Of a DNA stretch of 43,535 bases, positions 696 through 31,419 are shown piece by piece (the first letter of the stretch is position 1; each line of letters opens with the position of its first letter). A program made the position numbers and the translations under genes. Location: assembly GCA_945882065.1 (NCBI GenBank), contig CAMCWI010000005.1:1-43535 (forward strand). The letters are read 5' to 3'. This DNA comes from Akkermansia muciniphila (lineage in GTDB: Bacteria > Verrucomicrobiota > Verrucomicrobiia > Limisphaerales > JADLHS01). The notes beneath the pieces are model-generated. The model had not been told where the DNA came from, made no database searches, and saw only the letters and a list, made by a program, of their open reading frames with translations.

Positions 696-703
696 GAACG
701 GCT

Positions 704-778
704 CTGGCCGAAGGATTGGACGTAACCATCACCGATCAACATGTCTCCCAGTTGATCACCTACCGGCAGTTGCTATGA
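704..778 (+). pseudogene. Remnant of the 3' end of a GH36-like gene ([24 protein letters not shown])
   Basis: 25-codon in-frame match to the C-terminus of the GH36 gene at 3146-3220 ([24 protein letters not shown]). Confidence 0.85.
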
Positions 779-915
779 AACCAAAACTCACCCCGCAACC
801 GGGCACGACGTTCATCATGGAAAACATCAAGCGTAACAGGTCGCGCCAGGGCTGCCCCGCAACCGCGGCATTCACCCTTATCGAACTGCTCGTCGTGATC
901 GCCATCATTGCCATT
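704..915 (+). repeat. Direct repeat copy 1 (GH36 tail + pseudopilin head)
   Basis: Gap-free match to 3146-3357 (offset 2442), about 26 mismatches in 212 nt by hand. Confidence 0.9.
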
Positions 916-952: not shown

Positions 953-3220
953 ATGAAAGCACCGCCAATCAAGTCGGTCAGGATTGTTCCGGGACCGGCG
1001 AACGGTTTGACATTTTTCAGTAGCTTGGCGGTCATGCTCTTTGCGGGAAGCTGTCTCGCCGCAGAGATCACATCATCGTGCAAGGCGGCGAAAGACCTGG
1101 CGATCCCCGATTTGAATACCGCCACGCTATCCCCCTCCCAAGCCGAGTGGCGCGCGGGGTTTGAGCAATGGCTCAAACAAAACCTGTTCAAGTCCGGGGC
1201 GGCCCCGTTTTCGTTTGATTATGATGGCAAATCTTCAAGTGAGTTCCTTTCCAGTTGGAAGTTTGCGGCCACCAAGCGGCGATTGAACCCATCTCAAAAC
1301 CAACACGTTCTGACGTACACCGACCCGAAGTCGGGGCTTGAGGTTCGTTGTGAAGCCATCGTTTTTCAGGACTATCCGGCGGTGGAATGGGTCCTGAAAT
1401 TCAAGAATACCTCCGGCCGCGAAACCCCGATCCTTTCCAACATCCAGGCCCTCGACACCAGTCTGACCGATGAGCGCAACGAATTCACGCTGCATCACGC
1501 GCTCGGAGTCGGCGAAGGCATTGTCGCGCGAAAGGAGGATTTTCGTCCGCTTAGCCGCGTCTTGGCGCCGGATTCCAAACTGCGATTCACGGCCACGAAC
1601 GGGCGATCTTCCTGGGGCGACAGTTTGCCATTCTTCAACGTGGAGTTTCCGCAGAATCGCGGCGTGATTGCCAGCATCGGGTGGACGGGGCAATGGCAGG
1701 CGGATTTCAATCGGGACGCGAAGTCTTTGAATCTACGAGCCGGGATGGAGTTGACGCACCTCAAACTTTACCCCGGTGAAGAAATCCGGAGTCCGAAGAT
1801 CATGTTGCTGTTTTGGCAAGGCCATCGCTATTACGGCCAAAACCTGCTGCGGCGGATGATCCTCGCCCACTACCATCCGCAAAAGGAGGGCCAGCCACTC
1901 GCCATGCCTTTCGCCGCCAGCGCGGCGGCTTTGTACCACGAGGCGTTCAAGGCCACCGAACAGAACCAGCTCGATTACGCCAAACAGTTCGCGCCACTCG
2001 GCGTGGAGTATTTGTGGATGGACGTCGGCTGGTTTGAACAAAGCGTGCCGAACTCCCATCTCGCACCGCCCGATCCGAAGCGTTTTCCCAAGGGGCTCAA
2101 GCCGCTCTCCGAGGACCTCCGAAAACTCAACATGGGACTCCTCGCCTGGTTTGCGCCGGAATTCCAAGGCGGTGGCTCGTGGATGGAAAAAGCCTTTCCG
2201 GAGATGTTTCTCCGCTTGAAGAACCATCCCGCAGGAATAGACCTGCTCAATCTTGGGGATCGGAATGCCTTGCAGTTCCTGCTGGATCACACCTCCGCGA
2301 TGATTGCGAAGGAAGGGATTAAGATCTACCGAATGGACGGTCCCATGGGGGCTGACTGCCCCCGCCCGCAAAAACAACCACTGCAATGGTGGCGCGACTC
2401 AGACGCTCCGGACCGGCAGGGCATGACGGAGATTCGCTACATCGAAGGGCTTTACAAGTTCTGGGACGAATTACTCAAGCGGCATCCCGGCCTGATCATT
2501 GACCTGTGCGGCGGCGGCGCGACGCGCATTGATATCGAAGCGATGTCGCGGTGCCTCTATCTCTGGCGCTCGGATTGGAATCATCCGGGCTTCGAGCCGG
2601 ATGGGGAACAATCCAAGAACTACGGCGCGAATCTTTGGCTGGCGTCCGCTGCGACGGGCAGCGGGTATCCCGAACCTTACTCGTTCCGCAGTTCCATGAA
2701 CAACGGGCTGGTCATCGCCTGGAATCCCTATCAACCCACGATCACCCAGGACTGGCCGCTCGCCTATCCCGTGAAGCAGAAGGAAGGTTACGAACTGAAG
2801 AAAGCGCCGCGCACAACGGTGGACAAGGTGGTGCGCGAAGGCTTCATGGTCACCGAACCGTTCCCGTGGGAAGCTGCCCGGCGGTTGGCGGCGGAATACA
2901 AGCGCATCCGGCATTTGTTCTACGGTGACTTTTACCCGCTCACGCCCTACAGCTCGGCGGCGGAAGATTGGATGGCTTACCAGTGTCACCGTGAGGACCT
3001 CCGTCAAGGGGCGGTGATAGCGTTTCGTCGTTCCCAGTGCATCCGCCAGCAGGCGCGCTTGAAGCTGTGGGGACTCGACGCCCGGTCGCGCTACGAAGTC
3101 CGCATCGAAGACACCGGCAAAACTCTCACCACAACCGGCAAGAAATTGGCCGAAGGATTGGACGTAACCATCACCGATCAACCTGGCTCGCAGTTGATCA
3201 CCTACCGGCAATTGCCATGA
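953..3220 (+). CDS. GH36-like glycoside hydrolase (alpha-galactosidase/melibiase-like), secreted
   Basis: Long ORF with signal peptide-like N-terminus; [25 protein letters not shown] and [10 protein letters not shown] motifs shared with five other paralogs in the window. Confidence 0.85.
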
Positions 3221-3357
3221 AACCAGAACTCACTCTGCAATCAGGTACAATGTTCATTATGGAAAACCTCAAGCGGAACAGGTCGCGCCCCGGCCGCCCC
3301 GCAACCGCGGCATTCACCCTCATCGAACTGCTGGTCGTGATTGCGATCATCGCCATC
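3146..3357 (+). repeat. Direct repeat copy 2 (GH36 tail + pseudopilin head)
   Basis: See 704-915. Confidence 0.9.
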
Positions 3358-5615: not shown

Positions 5616-6695
5616 TCAGATCAGGCAGTCCCGCTGACCGGAACGTAGGTGAATAGTCTTGTTTTCGAGATCGTGGACGGCGCGAATGTAACGCACGGTT
5701 CGGCTTTTTGCGCGCATCAAAAGCGAGTGGGTAATCGCCGTCTTGCCCAGCAATTTCACCCCGGGCACCAATGGGCTGTCGGAGATGCCCGTGGCGCAAA
5801 AGATGGCACTATCCCCCGGCACGATTTCTTGCGTGCAATAAACCTTGGTCAATTGCGCATCGGGGAGACCGCCTCCCAGTTTTTGCCGCTCCGTCACGCT
5901 GCGAAACCACATCCGCATTTGGATCTCACCTCCCAGTGCCCGCAAAGCTGTCGCGGCTAAAATGCCTTCCGGTGTTCCGCCAATGCCCACGTAGAGATCT
6001 ACTCCCGAATCAGGCAGTGCCGGCGCAACCGCTGCCGCAATATCTCCGTCGGAAATCATGCGTAGCGTCGCTCCCGCCTCGCGAACCTGATTGACAAAAG
6101 CTTCATTGCGATCACGATCCAAAATCAGGACTACCAAATCCCGCACCCGCTTATCCAATGCACCGCCGACGAAATTCAACGTCTCAGCCAGTGGTCGGTC
6201 AAGCCAGTTTTCTGACGTACTGAATTTTCCCATGGCCTGCGCCACCTGGCGTCCATAGGCCAGTTTGTGGGAGTAATATGAGGGCAGAGCCAGCATGCGC
6301 ATTCCTTCACCCTCAACCGCCTGTGCGGCGCCAATGACCGAAATAGAATTGGCCATGCCGCGGGCGACATTTCGGGTGCCGTCAATGGGGTCAAGCGCAA
6401 TGTCGAAACAAGTTGAGCCTGGCTTCCAGTTGCCCAGTCGCTCGCCCTGGAAAATTCCCGGGGCATCATCCTTTTCACCCTCCCCGCTGACCACCTCGCC
6501 ACAGAGGTTGACTTGATCAAAGGTGCCGCGAATGGCGTCACAAGCGGCAGCATCAGCTTGTTCCTTATCACCGCGCCCGACCCAGTGGATTGCATTCAGG
6601 GCCGCGTTCTCGGTGGCGCGGACAAATTCAAATTCGATGGAACGTTCCGGATCACGTTCGGTGTCAGGAGATTCCGGGATTGATTCTTTATTCAT
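5616..6695 (-). CDS. glpX: Class II fructose-1,6-bisphosphatase (GlpX family)
   Basis: EFVRATENAALNAIHWVGRGDKEQADAAACDAIR, GEGEKDDAP, DPIDGTRNVARG motifs. Confidence 0.9.
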   Translation of the reverse strand: MNKESIPESPDTERDPERSIEFEFVRATENAALNAIHWVGRGDKEQADAAACDAIRGTFDQVNLCGEVVSGEGEKDDAPGIFQGERLGNWKPGSTCFDIALDPIDGTRNVARGMANSISVIGAAQAVEGEGMRMLALPSYYSHKLAYGRQVAQAMGKFSTSENWLDRPLAETLNFVGGALDKRVRDLVVLILDRDRNEAFVNQVREAGATLRMISDGDIAAAVAPALPDSGVDLYVGIGGTPEGILAATALRALGGEIQMRMWFRSVTERQKLGGGLPDAQLTKVYCTQEIVPGDSAIFCATGISDSPLVPGVKLLGKTAITHSLLMRAKSRTVRYIRAVHDLENKTIHLRSGQRDCLI

Positions 6696-7321
6696 GTCAG
6701 GTTGTGGATGTGTCCAAGTATTTCGTGCAGGACTGCGGCTGGCGGATGGTCGGCAACGACGGTGCGAACCAAATCAGGCGGGTAGAAGTTTAACAGGGGT
6801 TGGGACGTCCGTTCAAAAACTTCCAGCCGACGCATGATTACGTCGTCTTTGGCATCGTCCAGCCGGTTCTCTCGCAGGGCTCGGCGACGGAGGCGCTCAA
6901 CAAGCTCTACTGTTTGGTCGCATCGGAGATGAAAGACACCTCTGACTTGGATGATGTCGCTGAGTAACGACGCCTGAGCCAGATTGCGTGGAATGCCATC
7001 CAACAGCAGCATGTCCTTTCCTGGTTGATACGCTGCGCTCTGCACGCAGTTGTCGAGGTAGCTTTGCCAGAGTTTGATTGTGATTTCATCCGGCACCAGC
7101 TCGCCCCGGCTGGAAAAACTGGCGACCATTTGGCCGAGCGGACTGGTGGGAGTGATGGACCGGAACACCTCGCCGCAAGCGCAGTGAAAAAAACCCGGAA
7201 GGGCACCGAGGGCCCGGCCTTGGGTGCCTTTGCCGCAACCGGGCGCACCGAGCAGGATGAAGGCTTCGTGTTTTCTCGCTCTGTTCGGTTGCGTGGCGAA
7301 CATTGACATCGGTTTGTTCAT
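6692..7321 (-). CDS. adk: Adenylate kinase-like nucleoside monophosphate kinase
   Basis: ILLGAPGCGKGTQ P-loop, LLLDGIPRNLAQA; ATGA overlap with downstream glpX. Confidence 0.85.
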   Translation of the reverse strand: MNKPMSMFATQPNRARKHEAFILLGAPGCGKGTQGRALGALPGFFHCACGEVFRSITPTSPLGQMVASFSSRGELVPDEITIKLWQSYLDNCVQSAAYQPGKDMLLLDGIPRNLAQASLLSDIIQVRGVFHLRCDQTVELVERLRRRALRENRLDDAKDDVIMRRLEVFERTSQPLLNFYPPDLVRTVVADHPPAAVLHEILGHIHNLT

Positions 7322-7549
7322 ACTTCTCACGATCAAGGTTTCCGCGCTGATAATACTGGAACGGGAAGGCCATGCTTCTGATATTTGGGGAAAGTGCGAC
7401 GGTTTTCTTGAATCTTTACCGGTCTGAACTCGAACTCCGAAATAGCAAGCCGCCTACAACGGAGATGCGCACCGCCGCAGAGTGAGCTCGTCCTCGGGCG
7501 CAGCGACCTACGCCAACCAAGTCACAGGATGTTTTCAAACGCTCTTCAT

Positions 7550-7696: not shown

Positions 7697-10600
7697 CTAA
7701 GGCGAAAGCCGTCGATATTTGACGGTCGTTGCTTCCGGTGGCGTGGCCACTCTTACTACCACCCCGTCATTCATTAGCTGCCGGCCAGTCGCGGTGTTGG
7801 TGGTGGCTAACTCGAAATTGATCACCTGATAGGTCGCTCCCGATTGGAGACCTTGCAGCCGCAGGCCGATGCTCGGCGTGAGATTGCTCGCGCGGCGGAA
7901 AGCTTGGACGATTCCTTCGTTGAGGTCGGCGCGGTGGAACTGCCACGCGATCCAATCAACGTTGTTGGTTGAATAAGGCGTGAGCGGATAGAAATCGCCG
8001 GAGAACAAATGATTCAGCGAGGCAAAATTGGCGAGCTGGTTTTTGAGCGGAGTCCAGAAGGCCGCGCCCGGTGTGTAATAATCGAAAGCGTAAGTGCCCC
8101 AACTCCCCATGCCGCTGCGGAAATCATTGTTGGCGGTGCTGACGCCACCCTGACCGATCATAGGTAGCCAATGCGATAGTGCGTGCGTCATCGCCTGTGC
8201 GCCCACCACTTCCCAGAGATAATCCGTGCGCAGCAGTGGCACGAGACGACGATACATCTCGAAATCGAGCCGTCGCCCGCCGCTGGCGGAATTGTCCATC
8301 AGCAGGCCGGGATGATTTTGCTGGAGCGTGTCGAAGTACTCGTAGAGGCCCATCACGTAGCGAATTTCATTCATGCCTTTGCGATCCGCTGCCTCGCCGG
8401 TTCGCCAATACCAGAGCGGGTGCATGTTGAAATCGTGCCGGTAAATATCAATTCCCCAGTTGGTGATGATCGCGGAGAAGTTGGTCTTGGCCCAGTTCAA
8501 CGCAGTGGGATTGCCGAGGTTCAACATCCGCCAGCCATCGTTTTGTTGGTAGGCATATTCCGGCGGCATGCCGCTCGGAGTGAGCAACCAATCGGCATGA
8601 TTCGTCCGCAGCCAGGTGTTCGGCATCACGCGCTCCGGCTCGAACCAAAGCAGGAAGCGCAGGCCGTTCGTATGCGCACACTGGCTCACCGGCGCGAGGC
8701 CATTCGGGAAACGAGCCGGATCGGGGATGTTGTTGCCCTGACCCGTGGCGAAACCGCCGATTTCCCACCCCGCATCAATCCAGTACGTGTCCACCGGCAG
8801 TTGTTTCTGGATGATGTTGGTGATCGCCTGAATTTGATTCGTCACGGTGACGTTGTTGAAGCCGAGGGTCGCGCCGGATGCGGCGATCGGGAGGTCAATC
8901 GGCAGACCGTTCGGGCGCGGTGAATAATGCTCGAGCAACAGTCGCCGCAATTGTCGCTGCCCCTCCAGCCAATCGCCTTCGTAACTCAGCGTGAGCACCG
9001 CGGGCGTGCGGATGCGCTCGCCAGCGTCGAGGCGCAGATTGAAGTCCTCCATCCCAATGCGCACCGTGAGGTTCGTGCCCGAATCGCGGACGAAGGAGGC
9101 CTTCCATTGCCCGGTCCAGCCCACGGCCACGATCAGTCCACCGCCGCCGGGCTTGGCGATGTTGAAGAAGGGCATCACGCCGTCGGACGATCTTCCGCCC
9201 ACGGGAGCGAAGTTCATGGTGGAGTTTGGCAGTAGCGTTGCCGTGCGCGGCTGGAAGTCCGTGATGATCGCCGTGCTGCCGTCCGCGTAGTGAAGCGTGA
9301 ACTCGCCACTGTTATCGCGGCCCAGCGCAATCTCGCCGGCCCACACGTTCGAAAGAATTTCACTACTGGGAAGTGGAATCGTGGGCCCGACGACTTGGAA
9401 TCCGTTCACGACCGAGGTGCCGCTTTGCTCGCCGGTCGCCGAAACCACCAGTTGCCCGTTGGCATTGGCCTGACTGGTGAAGTGAACGAAGTCACGTCCT
9501 GCGGCGAACGGTGTGCCGGAACCAGCCGTGGCCGTCTTGGTTGCGCTACCGTTCACGCTGAATACGCCACCGGCCGTGCTGCCATCATTGGAAGCGAGCA
9601 AGAAGAGTTCGTAAGTCGCGCCCGCTGTCAATCCGCGCAGGGTCAACGTCGCCGTGCCGCTCGACATCGAAACGTAGTCCTCAAACAAATTATGAACTCC
9701 GTAATTACCCGAGGTCGAGCGGTCCGCGCCACTGAATCCGCTGAATAGCAGGTTGAGGGACGACGCGGCTCCGTTGCCCGCGACGAATCCACTGCTCGGC
9801 GATGGGCTGTTCGGCGACGTGTAGTTGATCAATGTACCGTTCCACAAATTACCGCCCGCCGGCCCGCCGCCGGAGTACGTCGTCGGCGTCGGGTCGAGCA
9901 GCCCCTTGCCGTTCAAGTCTACGGAGATCGTCGTGTTCGTCACGATGTCGTGTTGAACTTGGTCCACGCGCAGGTAGGCCGGCTGCACATTGGGCGAGAT
10001 CCGAATGCAGTCGAAGCCGCTGCTGACATTGCGAAAGCCATAGAAGTTGTTGGAATTGGCGACGCCGACCATCGCCGTCGCAGAACTCACGACCACGCCG
10101 TTCCGCAGCGCCTCGAACAGAGCCGAAGTTGCGCCGCCATCCACCACGAGCGCGAAGGCCGCGTTTGTTTGCGGCCGCGTGAAATAAATCGGCAGCGCCG
10201 GCTGGGTGAATCCTCCGCCAAACGGTTGGTAATTGAGCACCTGGCCGCCGGAGACATTTCCCGAAAGCGCATTGTCCCAGTAAACCGGCGTCGCGGCGTC
10301 GAAGAACAGGCCACGGTCCGAATATTCCGTGATGATCCGTGTCGCCGGATTGCCCGAAGCCGGCACGTTGTAGGCGTGTTCGGAAAACGTCACCGTCGTG
10401 GGTGGGTTGGTCAGGCCAAAATCATTCTGGAAAAACTCCGCCGCGACGGGCGGGTTCTCAAACCACAGCTTCCATTCGCGTGCCGGATAATCGGCGAACT
10501 CGACGGAATCAACCTGGAACTTGAAACCGTCGCCCGGTTTCGTGTAGGTGCGAACCCGCTGGGTGCGATTTGAATCCAAAACCGTCACGACTTCGCCAAC

Positions 10601-11965
10601 CGGCCAGGAATTGGTGATCGAGCTGGCTGAGGTGGTGCCGAAATTGAAGGCAAATCCCGCCGCTGGTGCCGGCGTAGCGGGCAACGGCGCGGTGCGGAAG
10701 TAGGTGGCGGGATTCGTGAGCGGCACGGTGGCGGCGAACTGGCTGGCATTGGAACTGACCCCGTGCGGCGAAACCGCCCACAGCGCAAGATTGCTGCTTT
10801 GCTGAAGTTGTGCCGCGCCCGCCGCGCCCGGCCACGACACTACCGCGTTACTTCCCTGAAGGGCGATGGCGAGCAGCTTCACCGACGGATCATCCAGAAA
10901 CGCTGCCGGCATTGGGGTGATGACTGGAAGCCCACTGGCCTTGATCAACACATAATCAACCTGACAGTCCGAAATGATTCCCGCGCCGAGAATTCCCGCG
11001 CGAAATCCGGCGTAGCCCGAACGAGCGGGAGAAAAATCCCAGCTCACCTGCCAGGTGGTCGGCTCGGGCGTGTCGCCGTCAGCGAGCCAGACTTTCGCGA
11101 ACGCGTCCGGGCCGCTGGCGTTGGGCGATTGTAGCAGGCGCAGCCAGTACCACACGTTCGTTGTCCATGCCGTGTTCAGCGAAGGACCGAACTCCGTGTA
11201 ATCGCTGAGGAATCGGAAGTGGCGTTGTCCCGGCCCACCGTAAGCCCCGGCGTTGTAGAGACTCATATTCAACCCACCGCGCACCGGCAAACTCCAACTG
11301 TTGGCCGGCACGCCGAGGGCGATCCCCGCGAAGGCATCCGCCTGTAAACTCACATTGGCCATCTTGATTCGCGCGAGCACCTCCTGGGTCGAGCCGTTGT
11401 AGGCCGGGTTGACGTAAATTAGATGATTCGGATCGCCGCTCCCTGCGCATAGATTCAGAAAACCGCCGGCCTGAGCGTAAACATCGGGACCAATAGCCAC
11501 CCAATTGGTATCGCGCGTGGGCGCGTTGAAGTCATCCTGAAATCCGCTTGCGGTCGTCCCCATTTCCACTGGTAAAAACGCGGCGAGACTCACGGTGACG
11601 TTCGCGTTGAACAAAGTCTGGTTGAGCGCCAGATTCTGAACACCGTTTACGACCAACGTCGGAGATGGGCCAAGATCAATTGCGCTCGTCGTCAGCACGA
11701 CATTCGAACTCGTCGCCCCCATCTGCGCGCTAAGGACGCTCGCCCGCTCAACGAAATAGTTACCCGCCACCGTTGCAGACGTCGGGCTAACCGCTTCCGA
11801 GAATGTTACTGTCACCTTGGTGTGATCCACCCAACCGCGCCGCACGGCGGTAACCGTCATGGCCTCAGTCGGGAGAAGCGCACCCAACATCGCGAGGCCC
11901 GCAAGCCACCTTGAAAACCACCTGAAAGTTCCTCCCCGGCAGGCATGGTTGGTGATTTTGTGCAT
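7697..11965 (-). CDS. Multidomain secreted GH36-like glycoside hydrolase (1422 aa) with N-terminal Ig/SbsA-like domain and inserted accessory domains
   Basis: [54 protein letters not shown]-terminal WVDHTKVTVTFSEAVSPTSATVAGNYFVE domain. Confidence 0.88.
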   Translation of the reverse strand: MHKITNHACRGGTFRWFSRWLAGLAMLGALLPTEAMTVTAVRRGWVDHTKVTVTFSEAVSPTSATVAGNYFVERASVLSAQMGATSSNVVLTTSAIDLGPSPTLVVNGVQNLALNQTLFNANVTVSLAAFLPVEMGTTASGFQDDFNAPTRDTNWVAIGPDVYAQAGGFLNLCAGSGDPNHLIYVNPAYNGSTQEVLARIKMANVSLQADAFAGIALGVPANSWSLPVRGGLNMSLYNAGAYGGPGQRHFRFLSDYTEFGPSLNTAWTTNVWYWLRLLQSPNASGPDAFAKVWLADGDTPEPTTWQVSWDFSPARSGYAGFRAGILGAGIISDCQVDYVLIKASGLPVITPMPAAFLDDPSVKLLAIALQGSNAVVSWPGAAGAAQLQQSSNLALWAVSPHGVSSNASQFAATVPLTNPATYFRTAPLPATPAPAAGFAFNFGTTSASSITNSWPVGEVVTVLDSNRTQRVRTYTKPGDGFKFQVDSVEFADYPAREWKLWFENPPVAAEFFQNDFGLTNPPTTVTFSEHAYNVPASGNPATRIITEYSDRGLFFDAATPVYWDNALSGNVSGGQVLNYQPFGGGFTQPALPIYFTRPQTNAAFALVVDGGATSALFEALRNGVVVSSATAMVGVANSNNFYGFRNVSSGFDCIRISPNVQPAYLRVDQVQHDIVTNTTISVDLNGKGLLDPTPTTYSGGGPAGGNLWNGTLINYTSPNSPSPSSGFVAGNGAASSLNLLFSGFSGADRSTSGNYGVHNLFEDYVSMSSGTATLTLRGLTAGATYELFLLASNDGSTAGGVFSVNGSATKTATAGSGTPFAAGRDFVHFTSQANANGQLVVSATGEQSGTSVVNGFQVVGPTIPLPSSEILSNVWAGEIALGRDNSGEFTLHYADGSTAIITDFQPRTATLLPNSTMNFAPVGGRSSDGVMPFFNIAKPGGGGLIVAVGWTGQWKASFVRDSGTNLTVRIGMEDFNLRLDAGERIRTPAVLTLSYEGDWLEGQRQLRRLLLEHYSPRPNGLPIDLPIAASGATLGFNNVTVTNQIQAITNIIQKQLPVDTYWIDAGWEIGGFATGQGNNIPDPARFPNGLAPVSQCAHTNGLRFLLWFEPERVMPNTWLRTNHADWLLTPSGMPPEYAYQQNDGWRMLNLGNPTALNWAKTNFSAIITNWGIDIYRHDFNMHPLWYWRTGEAADRKGMNEIRYVMGLYEYFDTLQQNHPGLLMDNSASGGRRLDFEMYRRLVPLLRTDYLWEVVGAQAMTHALSHWLPMIGQGGVSTANNDFRSGMGSWGTYAFDYYTPGAAFWTPLKNQLANFASLNHLFSGDFYPLTPYSTNNVDWIAWQFHRADLNEGIVQAFRRASNLTPSIGLRLQGLQSGATYQVINFELATTNTATGRQLMNDGVVVRVATPPEATTVKYRRLSP

Positions 11966-12217
11966 AAGATGGTAGAAATTCGGACTATGGAAAACTATTA
12001 GGTTGCCACTTCACTCTGGTCAACGGGTTTCGACAAAACTGTCAAGACTTTGCCGAAAACAATAGATTTAAGGGCGATGATTGAAACGAATCGCGCCAGC
12101 TTGGCTTGAAAACCGGCGCGCGCGATCACTTCGGAGTTCACCACGTCCGCCCGGTGGTTCACTGCGAGCGGCGTGGAGAATTCCACGCGCCATCAGAATC
12201 TTGAGGTTGTGATTCAT
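11580..12217 (-). repeat. Direct repeat copy A (Ig/SbsA-like head + intergenic + dehydrogenase tail)
   Basis: Colinear with 14614-15253 at offset 3033-3036 across coding and intergenic sequence. Confidence 0.85.
12060..12217 (-). pseudogene. Frameshifted 3' remnant of D-2-hydroxyacid dehydrogenase
   Basis: MNHNLKILMARGILHAARSEPP | (+1 nt) | ADVVNSEVIARAGFQAKLARF matches MARGILRAARGEPPEDVVNREVLTRPGFQTKLARF of the intact gene at 15103-16191. Confidence 0.85.
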
Positions 12218-12366
12218 GGTTCTATTCGCAATTGATCAATCTGGATGGAGTCCCGAACGTTCGAAAGCACGGGCAGTTCTGTGGCCTTCAGCAGCAGGAC
12301 GGTCTCGTCCCACAGCGGCAGCGACTCGAGCAGCAGGGCGGCGAGGAGGGTGAGGGAACGTTTCAC
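12214..12366 (-). pseudogene. 50-aa micro-ORF: signal peptide-like head with short truncated tail (VKRSLTLLAALLLESLPLWDETVLLLKATELPVLSNVRDSIQIDQLRIEP*)
   Basis: GTG start preceded by AAAGGA; stop overlaps ATG of the dehydrogenase remnant (ATGA); not in supplied ORF track because of length. Confidence 0.45.
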
Positions 12367-12405
12367 AATTTTCCTTTCAGGTGAGGGTATATTTCATGAG
12401 TTGAT

Positions 12406-14508
12406 TCACTTGACGACTTTCAGCACGAGCACTGCGGCGGCGGGTTTCTCGCGCAAGGTGATGTCGAGGCCGCGCATGAGTTCCGCGCCCGTGCGCGTTT
12501 CCTTGCCGCCATCGAGGTTTTCGATTTCGTAGGTCGCGTTGGCATCAAGGCCGCGGAGTTTTACGGTGAGCGTTTCATTCGCGGCTTCGGAACGGCGGAA
12601 GGCCTGGATCACACCGCCGCCGTTTTCCGGCGTGTGAAACTGCCACGCGATCCATTGGTCCGTGGCCCGGTTATAGGGCGTGAGCGGATAGTAGTCGCCC
12701 TCGATCATGTGCGGCGCCACGGTTCGGAATTCGTCGTAGGCTTTCTTGGCCACAGGCAGCGATGCGGCATGCATGCCAAAACCCGGCATGATAAGACTCC
12801 GGTATTCGTAAGGCTCCTGAAAGCGCGAAAGCCCGCCAAAAAACGGCAACCAGAAGGAGAGCCCGTAGGTCTGCCCTTGGAAGCCCTCGAATTTATCGGC
12901 ATCTGTGGTCATTTCATAATCGGAGCGCAGCAGGGGCACGGCGCGGCGCATGGATTCCAAGTCGTTGCGCCTGCCCCCCGAAGCGCACGAGTCGATGAGC
13001 AGTCCCGGCTTGCGCGCCCGCAGGGTATCCCACAGCGCGAGATGGCCCTGAATATAGAAATTCTCAGTCAGGCCGGCCCGCGGCAATCCGATTTCACCCT
13101 TCTCAACCTCGTCGTTCTTGCGCCACACTTCGTAGGGTCCCGGTCCGTTGAAGTCCTCGCGATACCAATCGAGTTTCTGCCGCTCGATTATCGTGGAAAG
13201 ATGGTCTTCGAGCCACGACACGGCCGCGGGATCGCCGAGGTTGAAGTAGGATCCACACTCTGTGCCATGCAACAACCACTTGGGGTGTTCAGTGGCCAAC
13301 ACCGGCCGATCATAGGCCCCGGGCGCGGAGTTGGTGTAGCCAATGCGCTCCGGCTCGAACCAGAGGACTGTCTTCATACCATGCTGCCGAGCCCAGTCTC
13401 CGAAGGGAGCAAAGCCCTTGGGAAATTTCACAGGATCCGGCTCCCAGAAGCCAGTGGTGTTGAGGAAGACTAGTGAAGCCAGTGGTGTTTTGGCGAATGG
13501 CAGGGGCTCGGGTTTGACCCACCAACCGTCGCCTGCATCCATCCAGCAAATGTCGGGCTTGATTCCCGCATCAAGGAGCCTCTGGAGCCGGGGATTTTCC
13601 GATTCGAGGAGCAGTGTCTGCTCATTCCAGAGCGGCCCTTGCCGGCCGCCCTCGGGATGGGGCATGACCTCCTCCCGATACCACCGGCGCCATAGGTTCT
13701 GCGCGATTTCCCAATCCCCACCCTTCCAGAACAGCATAGTCGCCGACGGAAACCGCACCTTCTCGCCGGGCTTGAGCCGGAACTCCGACCTTTCCTGGCC
13801 CGCCTGCCAACGCATACCGCCGTTCTCCGCGCTGAAAGTGGCCGACCAATTCCCGGGCCAGCCCAGGACCAAGATCCGGCCTTCATTGCCGGGGCCGGCC
13901 AAGTTGAAATAAGGCCAACCGTCGCGCCCGTGGGTCGATTTGCCACTGGGTCCCGGACTGAAAATCCGGGTCATGCCCGGCTTGGCTTGCCATTCGTAGG
14001 GGGCAAAGCTATTGGCACTGCAACTGTCGCCCTCGATCCCGTGCAGAGTGAACTCGGAGCCTTCGAAAAAAACGTCCGCCGTCTGCAACCCGCGCAGTTC
14101 GGGGGAGTTCCCTCCTCCGTTGTTTTGAAGAAAAGCCGTCCATTCGACCACCGGCCAGTTCTGGTATGTGATGATTTCCACCCGCAACTCCAGACCTGTT
14201 GCCGGATCGCGACGACGCAAAACCGTGGTCTCCTTGCCGTCGTCGGCACGGTGCTCGGCGGGCAGAGTGCTCCACCCGGCGAGAAAATCGCGGGAAGGCT
14301 TTCCCTCCAGCGAGAAAGAAATCGGCCAACGGGCAGGGTCTGCTGCGTTCCAGAATGATTTCGCCCAAGCTTGGCTGGCTTCAGCATCTGCCGCCGAGGA
14401 TGCCTTGTCATCGGACGGACGCCGCTCAGATTTATTTGTCTGATTGCAACCGGCCAATCCAATGAGCAGCACCAAGAAAGTGGTGGGGAGTGTGAGGGTG
14501 GGTTTCAT
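12406..14508 (-). CDS. GH36-like alpha-galactosidase-type lipoprotein
   Basis: Lipobox-like LLIGLAGC; WMDAGDGWW, VLWFEPERIG, DWYREDFNG, IDSCASGGRRNDLE, GDYYPLTPYN. Confidence 0.9.
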   Translation of the reverse strand: MKPTLTLPTTFLVLLIGLAGCNQTNKSERRPSDDKASSAADAEASQAWAKSFWNAADPARWPISFSLEGKPSRDFLAGWSTLPAEHRADDGKETTVLRRRDPATGLELRVEIITYQNWPVVEWTAFLQNNGGGNSPELRGLQTADVFFEGSEFTLHGIEGDSCSANSFAPYEWQAKPGMTRIFSPGPSGKSTHGRDGWPYFNLAGPGNEGRILVLGWPGNWSATFSAENGGMRWQAGQERSEFRLKPGEKVRFPSATMLFWKGGDWEIAQNLWRRWYREEVMPHPEGGRQGPLWNEQTLLLESENPRLQRLLDAGIKPDICWMDAGDGWWVKPEPLPFAKTPLASLVFLNTTGFWEPDPVKFPKGFAPFGDWARQHGMKTVLWFEPERIGYTNSAPGAYDRPVLATEHPKWLLHGTECGSYFNLGDPAAVSWLEDHLSTIIERQKLDWYREDFNGPGPYEVWRKNDEVEKGEIGLPRAGLTENFYIQGHLALWDTLRARKPGLLIDSCASGGRRNDLESMRRAVPLLRSDYEMTTDADKFEGFQGQTYGLSFWLPFFGGLSRFQEPYEYRSLIMPGFGMHAASLPVAKKAYDEFRTVAPHMIEGDYYPLTPYNRATDQWIAWQFHTPENGGGVIQAFRRSEAANETLTVKLRGLDANATYEIENLDGGKETRTGAELMRGLDITLREKPAAAVLVLKVVK

Positions 14509-14545
14509 AATTTCAGGCGAGGGTGAGGGTGTGTTTCCTGTTCTG

Positions 14546-14932
14546 CTATTTCTGGCGTTTCGGCAGATGCGGCAGCAGCTTGTCGAAGAGGGCTTGCTGC
14601 TCTTTTAGCACCGCGGCGAGACTCACGGTGGCGCTCGCATTGATCAAGGTTTGGCTGAGCGCCAGGTTCTGAACGCCGTTCACCGCCAACGTCGGAGCTG
14701 GGCCAAGATCTATGGAACTCACGGTCAGCACGACGTTGGAGCTGGTCGCACCGAGCTGCGCGCTGAGAACAGTAGCGCGTTCGACGGAATAATATTCCGG
14801 GGCCGTTGCGGACGCGGGGCTGACGACCTCGGAGAATGTCACGGTCACTTTGGAATGATCCACCCAGCTCCGTCGGGCCGAAACGATGTTGAGCGCGTGC
14901 GCCGTGAAGCTTCCGCTGACGATGGTCAGCAT
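14546..14932 (-). pseudogene. Chimeric ORF: Ig/SbsA-like head (paralog of 7697-11965 N-terminus) fused to sulfatase C-terminal tail
   Basis: VDHSKVTVTFSEVVSPASATAPEYYSVERATVLSAQLGATSSNVVLTVSSIDLGPAPTLAVNGVQNLALSQTL matches the 1422-aa protein; LKEQQALFDKLLPHLPKRQK* matches LTEQKDLFDKLLPHLPKRLD* of the sulfatase at 29409. Confidence 0.9.
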
Positions 14933-15253
14933 GATGATCGCGTGTTAGTGAACACCTTCCAAGGGCGTGTTTTTCGATGCACTATAAACATATACATATC
15001 GAGTCCACCAACAAGAGATTGTCCCACCACCAGTAAACCCGCGCCCAAATCAGGTCAACGCGGATGGTGAAAACCATCAAAACTTCACTGAAAAAGGTAG
15101 ATTCAGCGGCTACGATTTGAAGCAAATCGCGCCAGCTTAGTCTGAAAACCGGGGCGCGTGAGCACTTCGCGGTTCACCACGTCTTCCGGTGGCTCGCCGC
15201 GAGCGGCACGGAGAATGCCACGCGCCATCGCCTCACCCACCAAGCGCACCGCG
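14614..15253 (-). repeat. Direct repeat copy B
   Basis: Colinear with 11580-12217 at offset 3033-3036. Confidence 0.85.
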
Positions 15254-16191
15254 CGATAGGTTGTGGGCAACCAGTGAGGGGTGAGCACCACGTTGTCGAG
15301 TCGGGTCAGCGGATCGTTCGCCGCCAGAGGCTCGGGCGAGAAGACATCAAGCCCGGCGCCGGCGATCCTGTGCGTTTCCAGCGCGCGGATCATGGCGTCC
15401 TGTTTTACCAACTCGCCGCGGCCGGTGTTGATGAAATAGGCGGTGCGTTTCATCAGGCTGAACTCCCGCTCGCCGAAAAAGCCGCGCGTGGAATTGTTCA
15501 GCGCGCAGTGAAGGCTCACGTGATCGGATTCACCCAACAAGGTCTCCAAATCCACCAAGGTGACGTTACGGGCGGCGGCTTCGGTGGGCGCGCAGTGACG
15601 CGAGAAAGCCAGTACGCGCATCCCGAAAGGTTCGACGAGGCGGATCAACTCCCACGAAATTCTTCCCAGTCCGATAATTCCCAGCGTCTGCCCCGCCAAA
15701 TCATCGCCGGTAACGCTGGCCTGATTTCGCCAGTCGCCCGACCGCGCCATCCGCTCCTGGGCCGGCAGCCGCTTGGCCAGCGCCAGCATGAGCAACAGCG
15801 CGGCGGACGCGGTGGAATGCGTGAGCGATTCCGGTGCATTGAATACCGCCACGTCATTCTCCGTGCAGGCCGCGAGATCAATTTTGTCGGTGCCGACGCC
15901 GGCGCGGCCAATCACGACCAACCGTTCCGCGCCGTTGGCGAAAGCGGAGCGGCGCACATACGGACGGATAAGCACGATGCCATCCGCTGCCGCGACGTGT
16001 TGCGGCTCCAATTGCATCCGGTAGAGGTGTTCGCCGTAGGCCTCGCCGAGTTTCACCGGCGACTGATCCATGATAAATCCGTAGCGCACGTGCGGCGCGG
16101 TGGCGAGCAAATCTTCACCGTAGTAGCCGGTGGCGACTTTCCCTTCCGCGTTCAGAAAGTCACCGGAGAAAAGGACCTCGAAGTTGTTCAT
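15103..16191 (-). CDS. D-isomer specific 2-hydroxyacid dehydrogenase
   Basis: GQTLGIIGLGRISWELI (NAD-binding), FINTGRGELVKQDAMIRAL, GAGLDVFSPEPL, NVVLTPHWLPTT. Confidence 0.92.
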   Translation of the reverse strand: MNNFEVLFSGDFLNAEGKVATGYYGEDLLATAPHVRYGFIMDQSPVKLGEAYGEHLYRMQLEPQHVAAADGIVLIRPYVRRSAFANGAERLVVIGRAGVGTDKIDLAACTENDVAVFNAPESLTHSTASAALLLMLALAKRLPAQERMARSGDWRNQASVTGDDLAGQTLGIIGLGRISWELIRLVEPFGMRVLAFSRHCAPTEAAARNVTLVDLETLLGESDHVSLHCALNNSTRGFFGEREFSLMKRTAYFINTGRGELVKQDAMIRALETHRIAGAGLDVFSPEPLAANDPLTRLDNVVLTPHWLPTTYRAVRLVGEAMARGILRAARGEPPEDVVNREVLTRPGFQTKLARFASNRSR

Positions 16192-16195
16192 AGGT

Positions 16196-17467
16196 TTACC
16201 AGCGGCGCAGGTCGGCTTCAGTGGTGATCTCAACGCGTGCGTTGGTCTTCGATTTGAAATCATCACGCAGCCGCGTGCCAAGTCCGGGCTTGGCGGGAAG
16301 CGAGAGTTGTCCCTCGGAAATCGGGATGCGATCCGTCACCACGTCGTCATACCAGCCGTCCACATAACCGCGCACGGTTTCCATGATCAGCGCGTTGGGA
16401 ATGTGCAACATGAGATGCGCCGCCGCCCAGAGCGCGACCGGCCCGATCGTGTCATGCGACGTCACGGGAAGGAAATAGGTGTCCGCCAGGGTACAAATCT
16501 TCCGGCCTTCGGTGATCCCGCCGCCCCATGAAAAATCCGGCATGACGATGTCCAAAGCACCTTTCTCCAGCCAGGGACGGAAATTGAACCGGGTGAACAC
16601 CCGCTCGCTTTGGCAGATGGGAATCTTCGTGGCGGATTTCAGGCGCACGTAGGCATCCACGTTGTCCGGCGGCATGATTTCCTCAAGCCAATAGATGTCG
16701 TACGGCTCGAGCGCCTGCGCGATCCGGGTTGCACTCGGCAGGTTCCAGCGGGCGTGGCCTTCGATGGCGATGGACATCTTGCCACCCACCGCGCGGCGAA
16801 TGTCTTCAACAATGGCGACGCCGCGCTTCAAGTCTTCATTGTCTATGGAGTGACCGAGAATGCCCGCCGCCGTCCTCGCTCCCCAGACAACGTAAGGCTC
16901 GCGAAGCTTTGTCGGGCCGGAGAGCGTGGGGCCGAATTGGTCAAATGGCCAAAGCTTCATGGCCTTGATGCCCTGGCGCAGCAAGCTCTCGGCGAGTTCG
17001 CCCGCGCGACCGTCGCACCACGCTTCGAGGTCATCGTATTTGCCCGAGCTTATGCAAGTGTTATAGATCGGCACGCGATCACGGTTGCGGCCACCGAGGA
17101 GATTGTAGATCGGCTGGCCGGTGTGCTGGCCGACGATGTCCCACAAGGCGATGTCCACGGCCGAGATCGCCCGCATCTCCGAGCCCGCGTAACCGCAGAA
17201 ATTGACGAGCGAGAACATGTTGTTCCAGTGGTTCTCGATGTCGAGGGGATCGCGCCCGATCAGCAACGGCGCGAGCACATCGTGGATAACCGCCGCCACG
17301 GCGCGTGGGAGATAATACGTCTCGCCCAAGCCCACCAACCCATCGTCCGTGTGGATTTGCACCCAGAGATTATTCGGCAACGCCTGCCGTGAATGGGGAT
17401 TCTGCTTTCGCCATTCCGCATCGGGCACGGCTTGAAACCAGATCGTTTCGACTTTGGTGATCTTCAT
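16196..17467 (-). CDS. Mandelate racemase / muconate lactonizing enzyme family (enolase superfamily) dehydratase-like protein
   Basis: MKITKVETIWFQ...LVGLGETYY, SAVDIALWDIVGQHTGQPIYNLLGG, DIYWLEEIMPPDN, TSHDTIGPVALWAAAH. Confidence 0.9.
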   Translation of the reverse strand: MKITKVETIWFQAVPDAEWRKQNPHSRQALPNNLWVQIHTDDGLVGLGETYYLPRAVAAVIHDVLAPLLIGRDPLDIENHWNNMFSLVNFCGYAGSEMRAISAVDIALWDIVGQHTGQPIYNLLGGRNRDRVPIYNTCISSGKYDDLEAWCDGRAGELAESLLRQGIKAMKLWPFDQFGPTLSGPTKLREPYVVWGARTAAGILGHSIDNEDLKRGVAIVEDIRRAVGGKMSIAIEGHARWNLPSATRIAQALEPYDIYWLEEIMPPDNVDAYVRLKSATKIPICQSERVFTRFNFRPWLEKGALDIVMPDFSWGGGITEGRKICTLADTYFLPVTSHDTIGPVALWAAAHLMLHIPNALIMETVRGYVDGWYDDVVTDRIPISEGQLSLPAKPGLGTRLRDDFKSKTNARVEITTEADLRRW

Positions 17468-21963: not shown

Positions 21964-24303
21964 TCAGTTTCGCGCCTTCTGGTAGGTGATCCAGACCACG
22001 CCCGGTTCTGCTGCCAAATCCAGGGAGACACCTTTGCCCATGAATTCCTTTCCTTTCAAACGGGGTCCTACCGACAAGGGAATGCTCCTTACGTCGGAAA
22101 GAATTGGCAGCTTGCCTACAGACGTGAGATAGGTTGTGAACAGGTTGGTGTCGCAGGTGCCAAAGAATGTGCCCTCGTAAAACGCTTTGGTGGCCGGCGC
22201 CAGTCTTCCCGCATACGCTTTGCATTCATAATCAGCTGAGGACTGCAATGCCCGCGGAGATAGCGCTATATTTTGCGCATCGCCCGCCTTCCTGCGAACG
22301 ACCTGGATGACACCGCGGTTACGATCGGGGAGATCAAACTGACAAGCTGCCCAGGCGCGGTCCATCGAAAGGTCCGTCAGTTCGTAGAACTCACAAGCGC
22401 CGCCCTTTTCGTTCAACAGCAAGCGTCGGTAGGCTGGTTCCAGTCCCGCCCAGGCTTGCATCACCTCAACAAATTCGGCCGGGGGAGTGCCGTTTTTCTG
22501 GAGGAAATTGTCGCGCCAGACATTATTCGTGTCCTGGGAATTGAAAAGCAACGGGCCTCCCTCATTGCGATAGACGACATTGTTCTCGTAGCGGCATCCG
22601 GTGTTATTGCCGTCCAAATAGAGGCCATGACAGGCTTTGGTGTCCAGAATGCCACTTGCGACGGTTCCTCGACCAAAAGCATTCCATTGAGTGTCGTGTA
22701 CCAAGTTGCCACGGATTCGGGTACCATTTCCATAATTGGCGAAAGTAACGTAGAGACCGGCACCATCGACGGTGGTTTTCATGGCGTTATAGACGTGGTT
22801 AAAGTCGATGGAATTATTTTTTGCGAATTTCACCTGGGGATACTGGCTGCCGGCAACGATGATCCCGCAATAGGCGACATCATGCACCAGGTTGTGCGCT
22901 ATAGTCGAATCCTGCGCCAGATAGAGCGAAATTCCCGTAGCCCCGAAGTAGTCCGTCCCGACATGATGGATGTAGTTATTGGCGACGACATAGCTCTTGT
23001 AATCGTCCGCTTTTGGTGGTGGGGAGGCGTAGAGGTATCCCCCGGCGACATTACAGCCGCCGACGCCAATTCCGCCGCCGCCCAGGTCACAGATCTCGTT
23101 TCCTTCAATTCGGTTAAACCCTGTTCCGTCGCGGACGCAGATCGCCATTGCACCGACGTGGGAGATCTCACCCTTCAGGAAATGGCAATTGCGGGCATTT
23201 TCGAATTCCACGGCTGCCTCGATGAAGCGGTGCCCGACTTTGTCTTTGGTGCCAGTAGCGACGTTGCAGCTGAAGAGACCGCTATAGCCCCAGGCTGGCA
23301 GGGGCCAGTCCACGTGCATAACGCGGATACCTTCGAACGTGAGGTTGAGCACAGGCCGTTCTGGCGTGCCGACAACAGCCAGCAAAGTGTTTCTTACCAC
23401 AGTCGCCACCACCTCGACCCGGGCAAGGTCCTCACCAGCCCTGGGCCAGTAGGAAAGAACTCCTGTATGGGTATCCAAATACCACTCGCTGGGCTGGTCC
23501 AACATTTCGAGGGCATTTTCGACATAACAGGGTTTGCCTGTGGTTGGGGCGCTGAGATGCCAGTCATTGCCAAAAACCTTGGGGTTCCACCGGTGCGGCG
23601 GTGCAACGACCAGTTTCTGGGCGTCAACGTCCACACTCTGAAGCCTCTTTCGACCTCCCTCGTTATTGTAATTGCAGATTAATTCTACCTGATCTGGGTT
23701 GCTCCAGGTGACAATGGGGCCATCCACAGTGACGGTAAACGGCTCTTCCTCTGATTCGGTGAGAACAGCGGTGCGGATAAGCCACCAGGGTTTTTGCGCA
23801 TCGATGTTCGGGGTGCGAGCGCGAACGGCGCGCCGGCTATCTATGAATAACTGGCGGAATTGCCAGTCGCCGGATTTTACCTCGGGAATCTCAACCGTCC
23901 AAATGTCGCCAATCCCCTTTTTCCATCCGGTGATTAGCCGACCACCACTGAGGTCGACCCGTTCACCGGGAGCAGCGGCGTAGGTGATGGAATGCTGGGT
24001 CGTGCCGGAGTCCTCGGGCCCGAAAGTCAGCGTCTCCAGCTGACGATAAGTCCCCCCGCTAATCTGGACCCAAATGTTTTCGCTAAGTCCGGCGGCGATT
24101 TTCTGGCGTACTGCGTCGCGGGCACCTGCGAGGGTGGCGAAAGGGGACTTAGCGGTTCCAGGGTTTGTGTCCTTTCCATCGGTGGCTACGCAAAAGTCGG
24201 GCTTTGAGGGAGCAGCCAGGCAAGCAATCGCAGTGACAGAGAGAAAGAACAGACCAAACGAGAGGCCACTTCGCGAAAGGATTTGGAGACTGAACTTATT
24301 CAT
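21964..24303 (-). CDS. Right-handed parallel beta-helix (GH141-like) secreted protein with GH36-like C-terminal domain
   Basis: FCVATDGKDTNPGTAKSPFATLAGARDAVRQ, LTFGPEDSGTTQHSITYAAAPGERVDLSGGRLITGWK; C-terminal DRAWAACQFDLPDRNRGVIQVVRRKAGDAQNIAL resembles GH36 tail in neighbours. Confidence 0.85.
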   Translation of the reverse strand: MNKFSLQILSRSGLSFGLFFLSVTAIACLAAPSKPDFCVATDGKDTNPGTAKSPFATLAGARDAVRQKIAAGLSENIWVQISGGTYRQLETLTFGPEDSGTTQHSITYAAAPGERVDLSGGRLITGWKKGIGDIWTVEIPEVKSGDWQFRQLFIDSRRAVRARTPNIDAQKPWWLIRTAVLTESEEEPFTVTVDGPIVTWSNPDQVELICNYNNEGGRKRLQSVDVDAQKLVVAPPHRWNPKVFGNDWHLSAPTTGKPCYVENALEMLDQPSEWYLDTHTGVLSYWPRAGEDLARVEVVATVVRNTLLAVVGTPERPVLNLTFEGIRVMHVDWPLPAWGYSGLFSCNVATGTKDKVGHRFIEAAVEFENARNCHFLKGEISHVGAMAICVRDGTGFNRIEGNEICDLGGGGIGVGGCNVAGGYLYASPPPKADDYKSYVVANNYIHHVGTDYFGATGISLYLAQDSTIAHNLVHDVAYCGIIVAGSQYPQVKFAKNNSIDFNHVYNAMKTTVDGAGLYVTFANYGNGTRIRGNLVHDTQWNAFGRGTVASGILDTKACHGLYLDGNNTGCRYENNVVYRNEGGPLLFNSQDTNNVWRDNFLQKNGTPPAEFVEVMQAWAGLEPAYRRLLLNEKGGACEFYELTDLSMDRAWAACQFDLPDRNRGVIQVVRRKAGDAQNIALSPRALQSSADYECKAYAGRLAPATKAFYEGTFFGTCDTNLFTTYLTSVGKLPILSDVRSIPLSVGPRLKGKEFMGKGVSLDLAAEPGVVWITYQKARN

Positions 24304-24307
24304 AAAC

Positions 24308-27300
24308 TTACTCCTTCTTACGGTTCTCGGAGGCGAGGTAATTAAGGGTGTTTCGGAGGAGGCGTTCCGCGGCGGGATGCTTACCCATGTTTTCCCGGAG
24401 ATGATACATATTCAGGATCCATCTGCCCTTTCCCCGGTGATAGATGGCGAACCGTGTTCCAGAGTAATATCCGAAACTCGTGGCGATGGCGCCAGCCACG
24501 GTTTCGTCGGGCGTGTCCTGTCCCTGCCAGAGGCGATCGGCCAGGAGTTCACGGTAATAGGCAAAATCCAGGATTCCCCCTGAGGGCAGGCCGGCGAAAA
24601 CGGGATGGGCCTTGGCCCACTCGTCTTTGGCGTAATAGCAACTGGTGTCGAACGGGTTCGCGGCCGTGCCCTTCTCTGCGAGAGGAAGATGAAACGTTGG
24701 GTCGCTCCCAGAGGCAAAAACCTCCGGGTCAAGGAAGAGCACCTGTGCGCCGTTACTGACCTTCTCCATAAGAGCATCCAAAGCGGCTTTGCCGCCCGGT
24801 GGCGGTATTTGGCGGGACGCGACAATCACCCCGTCTGTTGCGCCGGCTTCCGCCGTGAAAGGCCGGCAGGGGATGCCCAGGCTCCAAAGCCGGGCGGACA
24901 GTTCCGTGTCTTCGCCCCAAATCAGGACCGGCTGCTTGACGGCCGGCATTTCGGCCGGATCGGCAACATGGAAGACGATCTCGCTACCGGGCATCTTGCG
25001 TCCATCCACAAACGAGGCCCGCAACCGGTATGAGCCGGAGGGCCAGTCGGCTTTTAGGGTTTCTTGGAAAACGGGGGATGCCAGCGGGGGCTCCGGGCTT
25101 GCGGGCATGGTGAAAGTTGCCTGACGGGTCATCACGACGGAATCGCCGGGGCCCAGAACCTCAATCGTGACCGCGTGCGCGCCTGCCGGCAGGGCATCTT
25201 CGTTGGCAAGCACCGCTTCCAGCTTGATGGCTCTTCCCCGATACAGGTTTCGGGGCTCGGCAAACAGGGACCAGCGAAGCGGTGCGAACCCATCGAGAAG
25301 GGCCTGGCGCATCCCGGGCTTCTCCCGGCGGAAGAGATCGAAGACCCCTTCTCCGGCGTTGGCGGTATCGATGTTCGCGGTCAGCGAATAGCCGACGATA
25401 TGGGGATTCGCCCGCAGCGCATTGATGCCGTCGAGCCGCTGACGCGAGTTGGCCCGTTGGCATTGATAGAAATAGTGGCTTGGCTGATCGAAGGTCGCGG
25501 CCATTTGCCAGCGATCCCAGTCCGTCATGAACCGATTCAGACGATCCTGGAAACCTTTGGCTCCGTCCAGGTGGGCGAAACCGCAAAGGGAATAGAGTTC
25601 CTGCATGCGCACCAGGTCGACCGCACTGGCGATGCCGAATTCGGAAACAAAGACATTTTTTGTCCCGGAGCCGACGGTGCGAAGGAAATCCTGAATCTCC
25701 GCGGTATGCGGCACGCGCGGGTAAATGTGAATGTCCCCCAGCGGCCCGGAGTAGCCCGCGATGGGCAAGGCGGGAGGCTGCGGCCATACTCCGCCCGGCC
25801 CACACAGCGGGGTGATCCGGGAGGCGCCCTCCGCATCGATCCCCAGCAGATGCTGCCATGCCCGGGAACCCGGATTGGCCACCGAACCCACGCCTGGGTC
25901 GCAATCCCAACGGCCACTGCTCAGGAACACCAAACGGTGCATGTCGTTCGAACGGATCAGACCGAGGGCGCCCTTGGCATGCAGGAAGATGGGGTGGTCC
26001 GGAGAAAGATCCCACGGTGATTCGTTCAGCAGTCCCCACGCCACGATGCAGGGATGGTTGCGGTCGCGCCGCACCATGGCGCGCATCTGCCGGTCCCGTC
26101 GCTCCTCGTAGAGACCCGGGGAATAATCCATCAGCCAGCCGCCCCGGGGTTCTTCCATGACCAGGAAGCCGAACTCATCCGCGAAATCCAACTGCCGACG
26201 CAAACCCATGGCTTGGAAAAAACGGATCGCGTTGAATCCCATCGCTTTCATCAGCCGAAGATCGGTGATCGGCCAGTCGGGGTTGAAGGGCACCCGCATC
26301 CCGAAAGGGTCCTGTTGCCCGGTATGGGCCATCCGCAAAAAAATCCGCTTGCCGTTGAGACGGAAATGCCCGTTTTCGACGCGAAAATCGCGAAATCCGG
26401 TGCGCACGGTCTGCTCATCCGCCGCGGAATCCTGCGCCTGCACCCGGGTTTTCAGATGGTAGAGGAATGGATCGTCCAGGTTCCAGAGCCGGGGTTTCTC
26501 AATCTGGAGTTGGCCACGCACCACCGTATCGCCCGGCTCGAGATTTGGGTTCAGCTCGGTCTTCACGCCCGTTGGGTCCACGGAGAAAACCACCGCAGCC
26601 GTGACGGCCCTGGTGCGGCTGTTGTGCAGGGTTGCTTCGATCTCCATCCGTCCGGTAGCCGGGTCGGAGTGCACATACACATCCTTGAGGAACACCCCCG
26701 GACGGATCAGAAGCTCCACCGAATCCAGGATCCCTCCATGGTTGAACGGCACGCCTCCCGGGACCTGCCCTAACAGAATGCCGTCCGTTCCGTCTCCCGC
26801 TCGCGCGGGATGGACCACGCGAACCGCCAGCAGATTGGAGGCTCCCGGGCGGAGCGTTCCGGTGACATCCAGAACAAACGGCACCTCCGTGCCTTCGTTG
26901 CCGCCGACGTGGGATCCGTTCAGCCACACGTCCGCCTTGTAAGAAACGGACCAGAACCGCAGCAGGGCGCGGGCTTCCGGCGATTCGAGTTCCGGGGCCG
27001 AGAACGCCTTCCAATACCACGCCACGCCGTGATAGCCGGGAAAAGCGCCCTGAATGATCCACGGCAACTTGGTCGGCCTGGCCTCCGGCCGTGACGACTC
27101 GAACCACTTTTCTTCCCGCCCGATGTTCGCAGGATCGGTCGCCAGCAACCAGTCGTCGCCATCGAGGGAAAGATCGGCGGGGCCGGCGTTCGCGGTCTCG
27201 CCAGCGCGTGCGATTCCGCATCCCAGGACCAGCAGGAGCGCGACCAACAGCACACGGATGCCGGAGCACCAAAACTGGAGGGCGGCGGGGCTCATGGTGG

Positions 27301-29402: not shown

Positions 29403-29408
29403 GATCGG

Positions 29409-31025: not shown

Positions 31026-31419
31026 CAGGTCCGGTTCATTTGCGTTTGATCCGCATGTCAATTTGGAACACCAAAGCATTTATCTTAGCCTGCGCTCCGC
31101 CAGTGGCAGCCAGTTTCTCGCTTACTTTCGATGTTTTCCCCCAACCTGGTCAAACGCCTGGATGATGGGCAACTGCAAAATGTCGGCTATTGGCAGTCAC
31201 CCTGAGGTTGCCACGGTAGCAATGGCATTAGCCTTGAAAAATGACGAAAAAACACCAAAAAACATAAGCCAGACTCCCGGCTCAGGCATAGCATCCCGGG
31301 TAAGTTGAGTCCATGCCAAGAGAGATGCAGTGTTGGCACATGGTAATGGAAGTGAATCTTGGCCGTGGTGCCGTGGTGCCGGGATAATTTGGCGCGCACC
31401 ACATGAAGGAACAAAAAAT

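Follow-up and report, generated by a model that had tools for sequence, protein, structure and literature searches.

Gene order and the repeat blocks

The window, i.e., the whole stretch of 43,535 nucleotides that was analyzed, is a single contig of a 3.86-Mb source genome that is assembled in 348 contigs and listed as 89.7% complete and 2% contaminated. A gene cluster on its minus strand starts with a sulfatase (S, 29409-31079) and runs through GH36_27369, a GH2 gene (24308-27343), a GH141-like gene (21964-24303), GH36_19844, GH36_17504 and a mandelate-racemase-like gene (MLE, 16196-17467) to the dehydrogenase gene D (15103-16191). Past the repeat region, the cluster continues with Ig-GH36 (7697-11965), which is followed by genes for an adenylate kinase, a fructose-bisphosphatase and an FGGY kinase. 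D is an intact 2-hydroxyacid dehydrogenase with the Pfam domains 2-Hacid_dh and 2-Hacid_dh_C, whose start is most likely at 16191 (MNNFEVLF) rather than at the TTG at 16281. Ig-GH36 is also intact (1422 aa), and has a full-length orthologue in the relative G227 and a partial one in the relative G011. Between D and Ig-GH36, on the same strand, lies an intact lipoprotein-type gene, GH36_12406 (12406-14508). The Melibiase and GH36 C-terminal Pfam domains scored above the cut-off in both intact GH36 genes, and the catalytic motifs of GH36 were recognized by eye; the activity is a prediction from the sequence.

The initial annotation described a colinear repeat of ~640 bp (11580-12217 and 14614-15253) around GH36_12406. 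When the window was compared with itself, two significant direct repeats were detected, both at an offset of 3033-3036 and both on the minus strand. Block 1 comprises the 3′ end of D plus 54 bp past its stop codon (copy B, 15047-15229), and a 131-bp dehydrogenase tail (D′) with a +1 frameshift, again with 54 bp past the stop (copy A, 12011-12194); the segments 12015-12194 and 15050-15229 are 77% identical (E 5e-32). Block 2 comprises the Ig domain of the intact Ig-GH36 gene (copy A, 11579-11833) and a second Ig domain (Ig′) that is truncated after ~107 codons (copy B, 14612-14866), with 78.0% identity over 255 bp without gaps (E 3e-54). The z-scores against dinucleotide shuffles were 20 for the dehydrogenase block and 27 for the Ig block, and neither block had a further copy elsewhere in the source genome. 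The segments 12195-12217 and 15230-15252 aligned at chance level, and the corrected ends of the repeat are 11579-12194 and 14612-15229.

A single 640-bp repeat was ruled out, as the middle (11834-12014 against 14867-15049) was at chance level by three tests (global z 0.4; local p 0.80; best 40-mer p 0.49). In copy B this stretch (14867-15046, minus strand) consists of intergenic DNA and the start of Ig′, and has no above-chance similarity to 11834-12014. The unlike middles have nearly the same length, 181 bp in copy A and 183 bp in copy B. Either chance or a common ancestry, after which one of the copies was replaced here or lost its similarity, would account for this, and we see no further explanation. 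Of the colinearity that had been proposed through more than 100 bp of intergenic DNA, what stands is the 54 bp past the dehydrogenase stop (38/54 identical, ungapped), and the remainder is at chance level. These 54 bp are shared beyond a stop codon, and their similarity is not a matter of convergence at the protein level. The assignment of the genes to the copies was confirmed throughout: copy A carries an intact Ig-GH36 gene and a frameshifted dehydrogenase stub, copy B carries an intact dehydrogenase and a truncated Ig gene, GH36_12406 stands between them, and hence each copy has kept a different intact gene.

Ig′ and Ig are mutual closest known relatives (72% aa identity; next-best 48-49%). 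Both domains scored below the 23.6-bit Pfam cut-off of SbsA/Big_5 (PF13205), at 15.1 and 15.8 bits, and the homologous domain of a relative reached 36.2 bits. Just past the dehydrogenase end a hairpin is possible in both copies (12015-12072 and 15050-15108), with differing bases and predicted raw energies of -10.7 and -13.8 kcal/mol.

Gene remnants between the intact genes

In copy B, a three-way alignment of the intact Ig, the junction and the intact sulfatase located the end of Ig′ at a 7-bp microhomology, CGCCGC(G/C) (14612-14618, minus strand), from which the last 23 codons and the stop of a sulfatase (S′, 14546-14618, minus strand) continue in frame. S′ was identical to the window's own sulfatase (29409-31079) at 57 of 65 positions and to the sulfatase of the relative G133 at 45 of 57, so that by this comparison it is nearer to the former; a search of the relatives for the sulfatase gave two distant matches only. 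The start of Ig′, as read from the sequence, is without a normal signal-peptide beginning. A separate in-frame joint was observed at the intact sulfatase itself. Its promoter and first ~66 codons (30881-31099) lie in a stretch of 90% identity to G011 and closely resemble the beginning of a GH36 gene there (L091); behind this GH36-type head (30881-31079) the body of the sulfatase follows in frame.

GH36_12406 directly follows S′, and GH36_27369 stands in the same relation to the intact sulfatase (pair at 27369-31079, minus strand). In the protein tree it forms a long branch within the GH36_27369 subclade (1.38, vs 0.28 for GH36_27369), and forcing the two genes as sisters cost 0.08 lnL units (AU p 0.51), so that they may be sisters. 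A placement as copy or sister of GH36_19844 was rejected (AU p 0.0004). Since GH36_12406 groups with GH36_27369, the order S-GH36-D-Ig is the same in both copies. The sulfatase tail ahead of it, as in the intact pair, supports the view that the intervening GH36 gene belongs to the duplication pattern.

In copy A, a mini-ORF of 50 codons (12217-12366, minus strand) precedes the dehydrogenase stub. Its head, PLWDETVLLLKATELPVLSNV, gave 15.2 bits against positions 18-44 of a BNR_2-family profile (2000 shuffles reached 2.8 at most). Its tail, IDQLRIEP-stop, fits the C-terminus of the family (IEQLRIE-stop in the homolog L100 of a relative). Head and tail thus match the secreted, sialidase-like BNR_2 (PF13088) proteins of the relatives (L100, L106-L109), whereas the middle, ~340 codons, is gone. 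Judged by these matches, the mini-ORF is a BNR-like gene from which ~340 codons were removed in frame; the BNR repeats are absent, and it is a remnant rather than a member of the family. The source genome contains no intact BNR_2-family copy at E 1e-50, and an initial peptide search of 57 relatives for this remnant matched only the window itself. The leader of the mini-ORF (12340-12398, minus strand) resembles that of GH36_12406 (14482-14540), with 43 of 59 positions identical without gaps and a score of 46 (null maximum 24). Other sources had been considered: as a piece of the GH2, GH141 or GH36 genes of copy 1 (the upstream cluster copy), 12217-12366 gave a best p of 0.02-0.03 with an unconvincing alignment before it proved BNR-like, and for a phage origin of 12195-12410 no match was found.

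The stop of the mini-ORF overlaps the ATG of a short peptide, MNHNLKIL (12194-12217, minus strand), which continues in frame with the D′ tail, with the +1 frameshift lying after this head-tail join. It resembles the start of D (MNNFEVLF). Beyond the ATG, 12 of 18 nucleotides agree when one codon gap is allowed, and 8 of 1224 other ATG 24-mers equal that. MNHNLKIL is therefore probably the remnant of the stub's own start. The differences between D′ and D are flat over the codon positions (6/5/8; third positions 8/39), whereas those between D and its G011 orthologue are not (5/2/19; third positions 19/39). Because the differences from D are spread evenly, D′ has drifted as non-coding DNA. Its separation from D would be younger than the split from G011, provided that D′ was not refreshed by recombination. 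A kinase-start remnant behind D, an idea taken from the D-kinase neighborhood of G011, was discarded (alignment p 0.09-0.45).

Relatives, a second scar and divergence

The order GH36-MLE-D is kept in the relatives G036 and G227. The closest matching DNA among the relatives searched was that of G011, whose assembly is listed at 7% contamination, and it lies on separate contigs. One of them carries GH36_19844-GH36_17504-MLE (80-97% aa identity), and at the locus L022 D stands directly before a kinase. On a third, C522, which ends inside the gene, Ig-GH36 is 93% identical over residues 596-1421 and lies ~200 bp from a second kinase copy, a pilin gene and the GH36 gene g932. The full-length orthologue of G227 (56% over 1442 aa) is located away from D. 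The neighborhood of D and Ig-GH36 was not found in the relatives examined, and no intact tandem of both copies was detected elsewhere (D searched in 96 and 320 genomes, Ig in 313). As for the adenylate kinase and the fructose-bisphosphatase (5616-7336), which in the window sit between Ig-GH36 and the FGGY kinase, they are absent from this place in G011 and lie ahead of GH36-MLE-D in G036; the fructose-bisphosphatase gave no match when five relatives were searched for it.

A second scar was observed at 701-914 (plus strand), between the pilin gene g3 and the GH36 gene g932, where the tail of a GH36 gene and the head of a pilin gene are both incomplete. The segment 705-914 is 88.6% identical to the window's own intact copy (3147-3356), which lies on the other side of g932, but 97.1% identical to positions 16000-16209 of C522 in G011. 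Here at least, two differing copies stood side by side and were then trimmed.

The repeat blocks do not share one divergence. For Ig′/Ig, dS was 0.96 and dN 0.11, with differences of 9/10/37 by codon position; the third positions (37/85) differ more than those of D′ (8/39; 0.21; Fisher p 0.016). For the sulfatase-tail pair dS was 0.43, on 23 codons, and for the GH36 pair it was saturated at about 1.8. Among the orthologues of the cluster in the window and G011, dS ranges from 0.22 to 1.35, with 0.58 for Ig-GH36. Within the latter (7702-10181, compared with L127 of G011), third-position divergence, taken over stretches of 50 codons, was seen to vary from 0.04 to 0.44. Such a mosaic most simply suggests recombination tracts. 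Since the G011 orthologues are mosaics, dS can neither show nor refute a common age of the blocks. The dS values that had been suggested as a check on the duplication were thus obtained for the paired copies, but they do not settle the date of the event, and dS was abandoned as a clock. The same caution extends to other duplications of this kind, which should not be dated by dS when the orthologues are mosaics.

Origin of the arrangement

The reading that we favor, with a probability of roughly 0.55, is that a tandem pair of related GH36 clusters was joined at a microhomology and then underwent reciprocal gene loss. The ancestral unit in both copies would have been sulfatase-GH36-...-dehydrogenase-Ig/GH36, and illegitimate (microhomology) recombination would have joined the head of the Ig gene to the sulfatase tail. 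The junction of a unit end to a unit start, as a tandem duplication needs, is present at 14612-14618. Copy 1 would have retained the sulfatase, GH36_27369 and the genes up to the dehydrogenase and the truncated Ig, and copy 2 the sulfatase tail, the fast-changed GH36_12406, the collapsed BNR gene, the dehydrogenase stub and the intact Ig-GH36. Deletions would have removed most of copy 2, in two cases probably in frame and inside a single gene, and recombination among related copies would have left the mosaic. The second scar described above, around the GH36 gene g932, also speaks for this reading. We infer both a single tandem joining event and the order of the deletions. Of the partial segmental duplication proposed by the initial annotation, the derivation of both copies from one dehydrogenase-Ig arrangement is retained, but not a simple copy of ~640 bp, as the middle is dissimilar and the divergences are unequal. 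A single duplication in situ is favored by the gene order and the D′ pattern, and the differences between the copies in gene content and apparent age count against it. S, GH36, D and Ig are common to both, and MLE precedes D in copy 1 and the BNR gene does so in copy 2. Traces of MLE, GH2 and GH141 were looked for in copy 2 and none was found, nor was a BNR trace found in copy 1.

This unlike gene content also fits a reading that we hold to be possible, although clearly less probable, in which two alleles of the cluster, or two paralogous loci, that had diverged beforehand were placed side by side and then trimmed, with no duplication in situ. A related strain could, for example, have supplied the DNA, with homologous or illegitimate integration as the route. 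G011 has two separate loci, D-kinase (L022) and Ig-GH36-kinase (C522), with a kinase-pair dS of 0.62, but with 7% contamination the two loci may come from different organisms. The second scar, nearer to the G011 allele than to the window's own copy, is in line with such a merger, as is the dS of Ig′/Ig, which exceeds that of Ig-GH36 between the window and G011. The flat codon pattern and low divergence of D′ argue against it, and point to a recent copy of D that then decayed rather than to a working allele.

It is unlikely that the two blocks are independent, i.e., that the end of a dehydrogenase gene was copied, that an Ig head was acquired separately, and that they came to lie in the same order by chance. 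The dissimilar middle and the differing apparent ages of the blocks would agree with this, but the near-equal spacing, the mutual closest relationship of Ig′ and Ig and the lack of copies of either block elsewhere in the genome speak against it. An assembly artefact or chimeric contig, which the fragmentation of the source genome might suggest, is very improbable, given that the copies, at 77-78% identity, are too unlike for a misassembled strain variant, and that both contig halves show synteny with relatives (GH36-MLE-D is shared with G036 and G011, and in G011 Ig-GH36 lies near a kinase).

Reciprocal loss after a duplication or a merger is a known process, and the locus is an ordinary case of it, with recombination as well, that is unusually legible. 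The SNAP hypothesis (PMC7055797) describes duplication and then reciprocal gene loss in bacteria, with tens of kb or more between the repeats and with essential genes. As in that hypothesis, a segment would have been duplicated and different genes inactivated in each copy, so that the copies cannot collapse back and gene order changes; here, however, the junction has only 7 bp of microhomology, no essential role is known for the genes, and a part played by selection would be hypothetical. The tandem duplication-random loss model of gene-order change, for which mitochondrial genomes have been the main object of study (PMC3283314 is an example), likewise starts from a tandem copy and proceeds by loss of alternate copies, but the copies in the window are unlike in gene content and apparent age. 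Tandem duplications joined at GC-rich microhomologies of less than 10 bp are also found in bacteria (PMC11111574); those are engineered and recent, whereas the present junction is ancient and decayed. Reciprocal loss after duplication is a proposed driver of bacterial gene-order change, for which fixed, natural and scarred examples are useful, and the locus provides a legible record of the growth and shrinkage of a carbohydrate-degrading cluster in an uncultured bacterium, probably of the Verrucomicrobiota by its gene content, in which tandem microhomology joining, reciprocal loss, signal-peptide exchange and recombination among related copies are recorded.

The joints that are in frame are Ig′::sulfatase tail, the BNR mini-ORF, D′ head::tail and the GH36 head::sulfatase (30881-31079). 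It is doubtful that in-frame fusion, or an in-frame collapse from start to stop, is the preferred way in which cluster genes are lost, perhaps because short frames that are still translated would preserve translational coupling along the operon; the three fusions and the sulfatase head are weak evidence for selection, because one in three would be in frame for each event. In addition, pyruvate dehydrogenase E1 alpha and beta form a single fused ORF of 709 aa in the window (31330-33459), and are two ORFs in G227.
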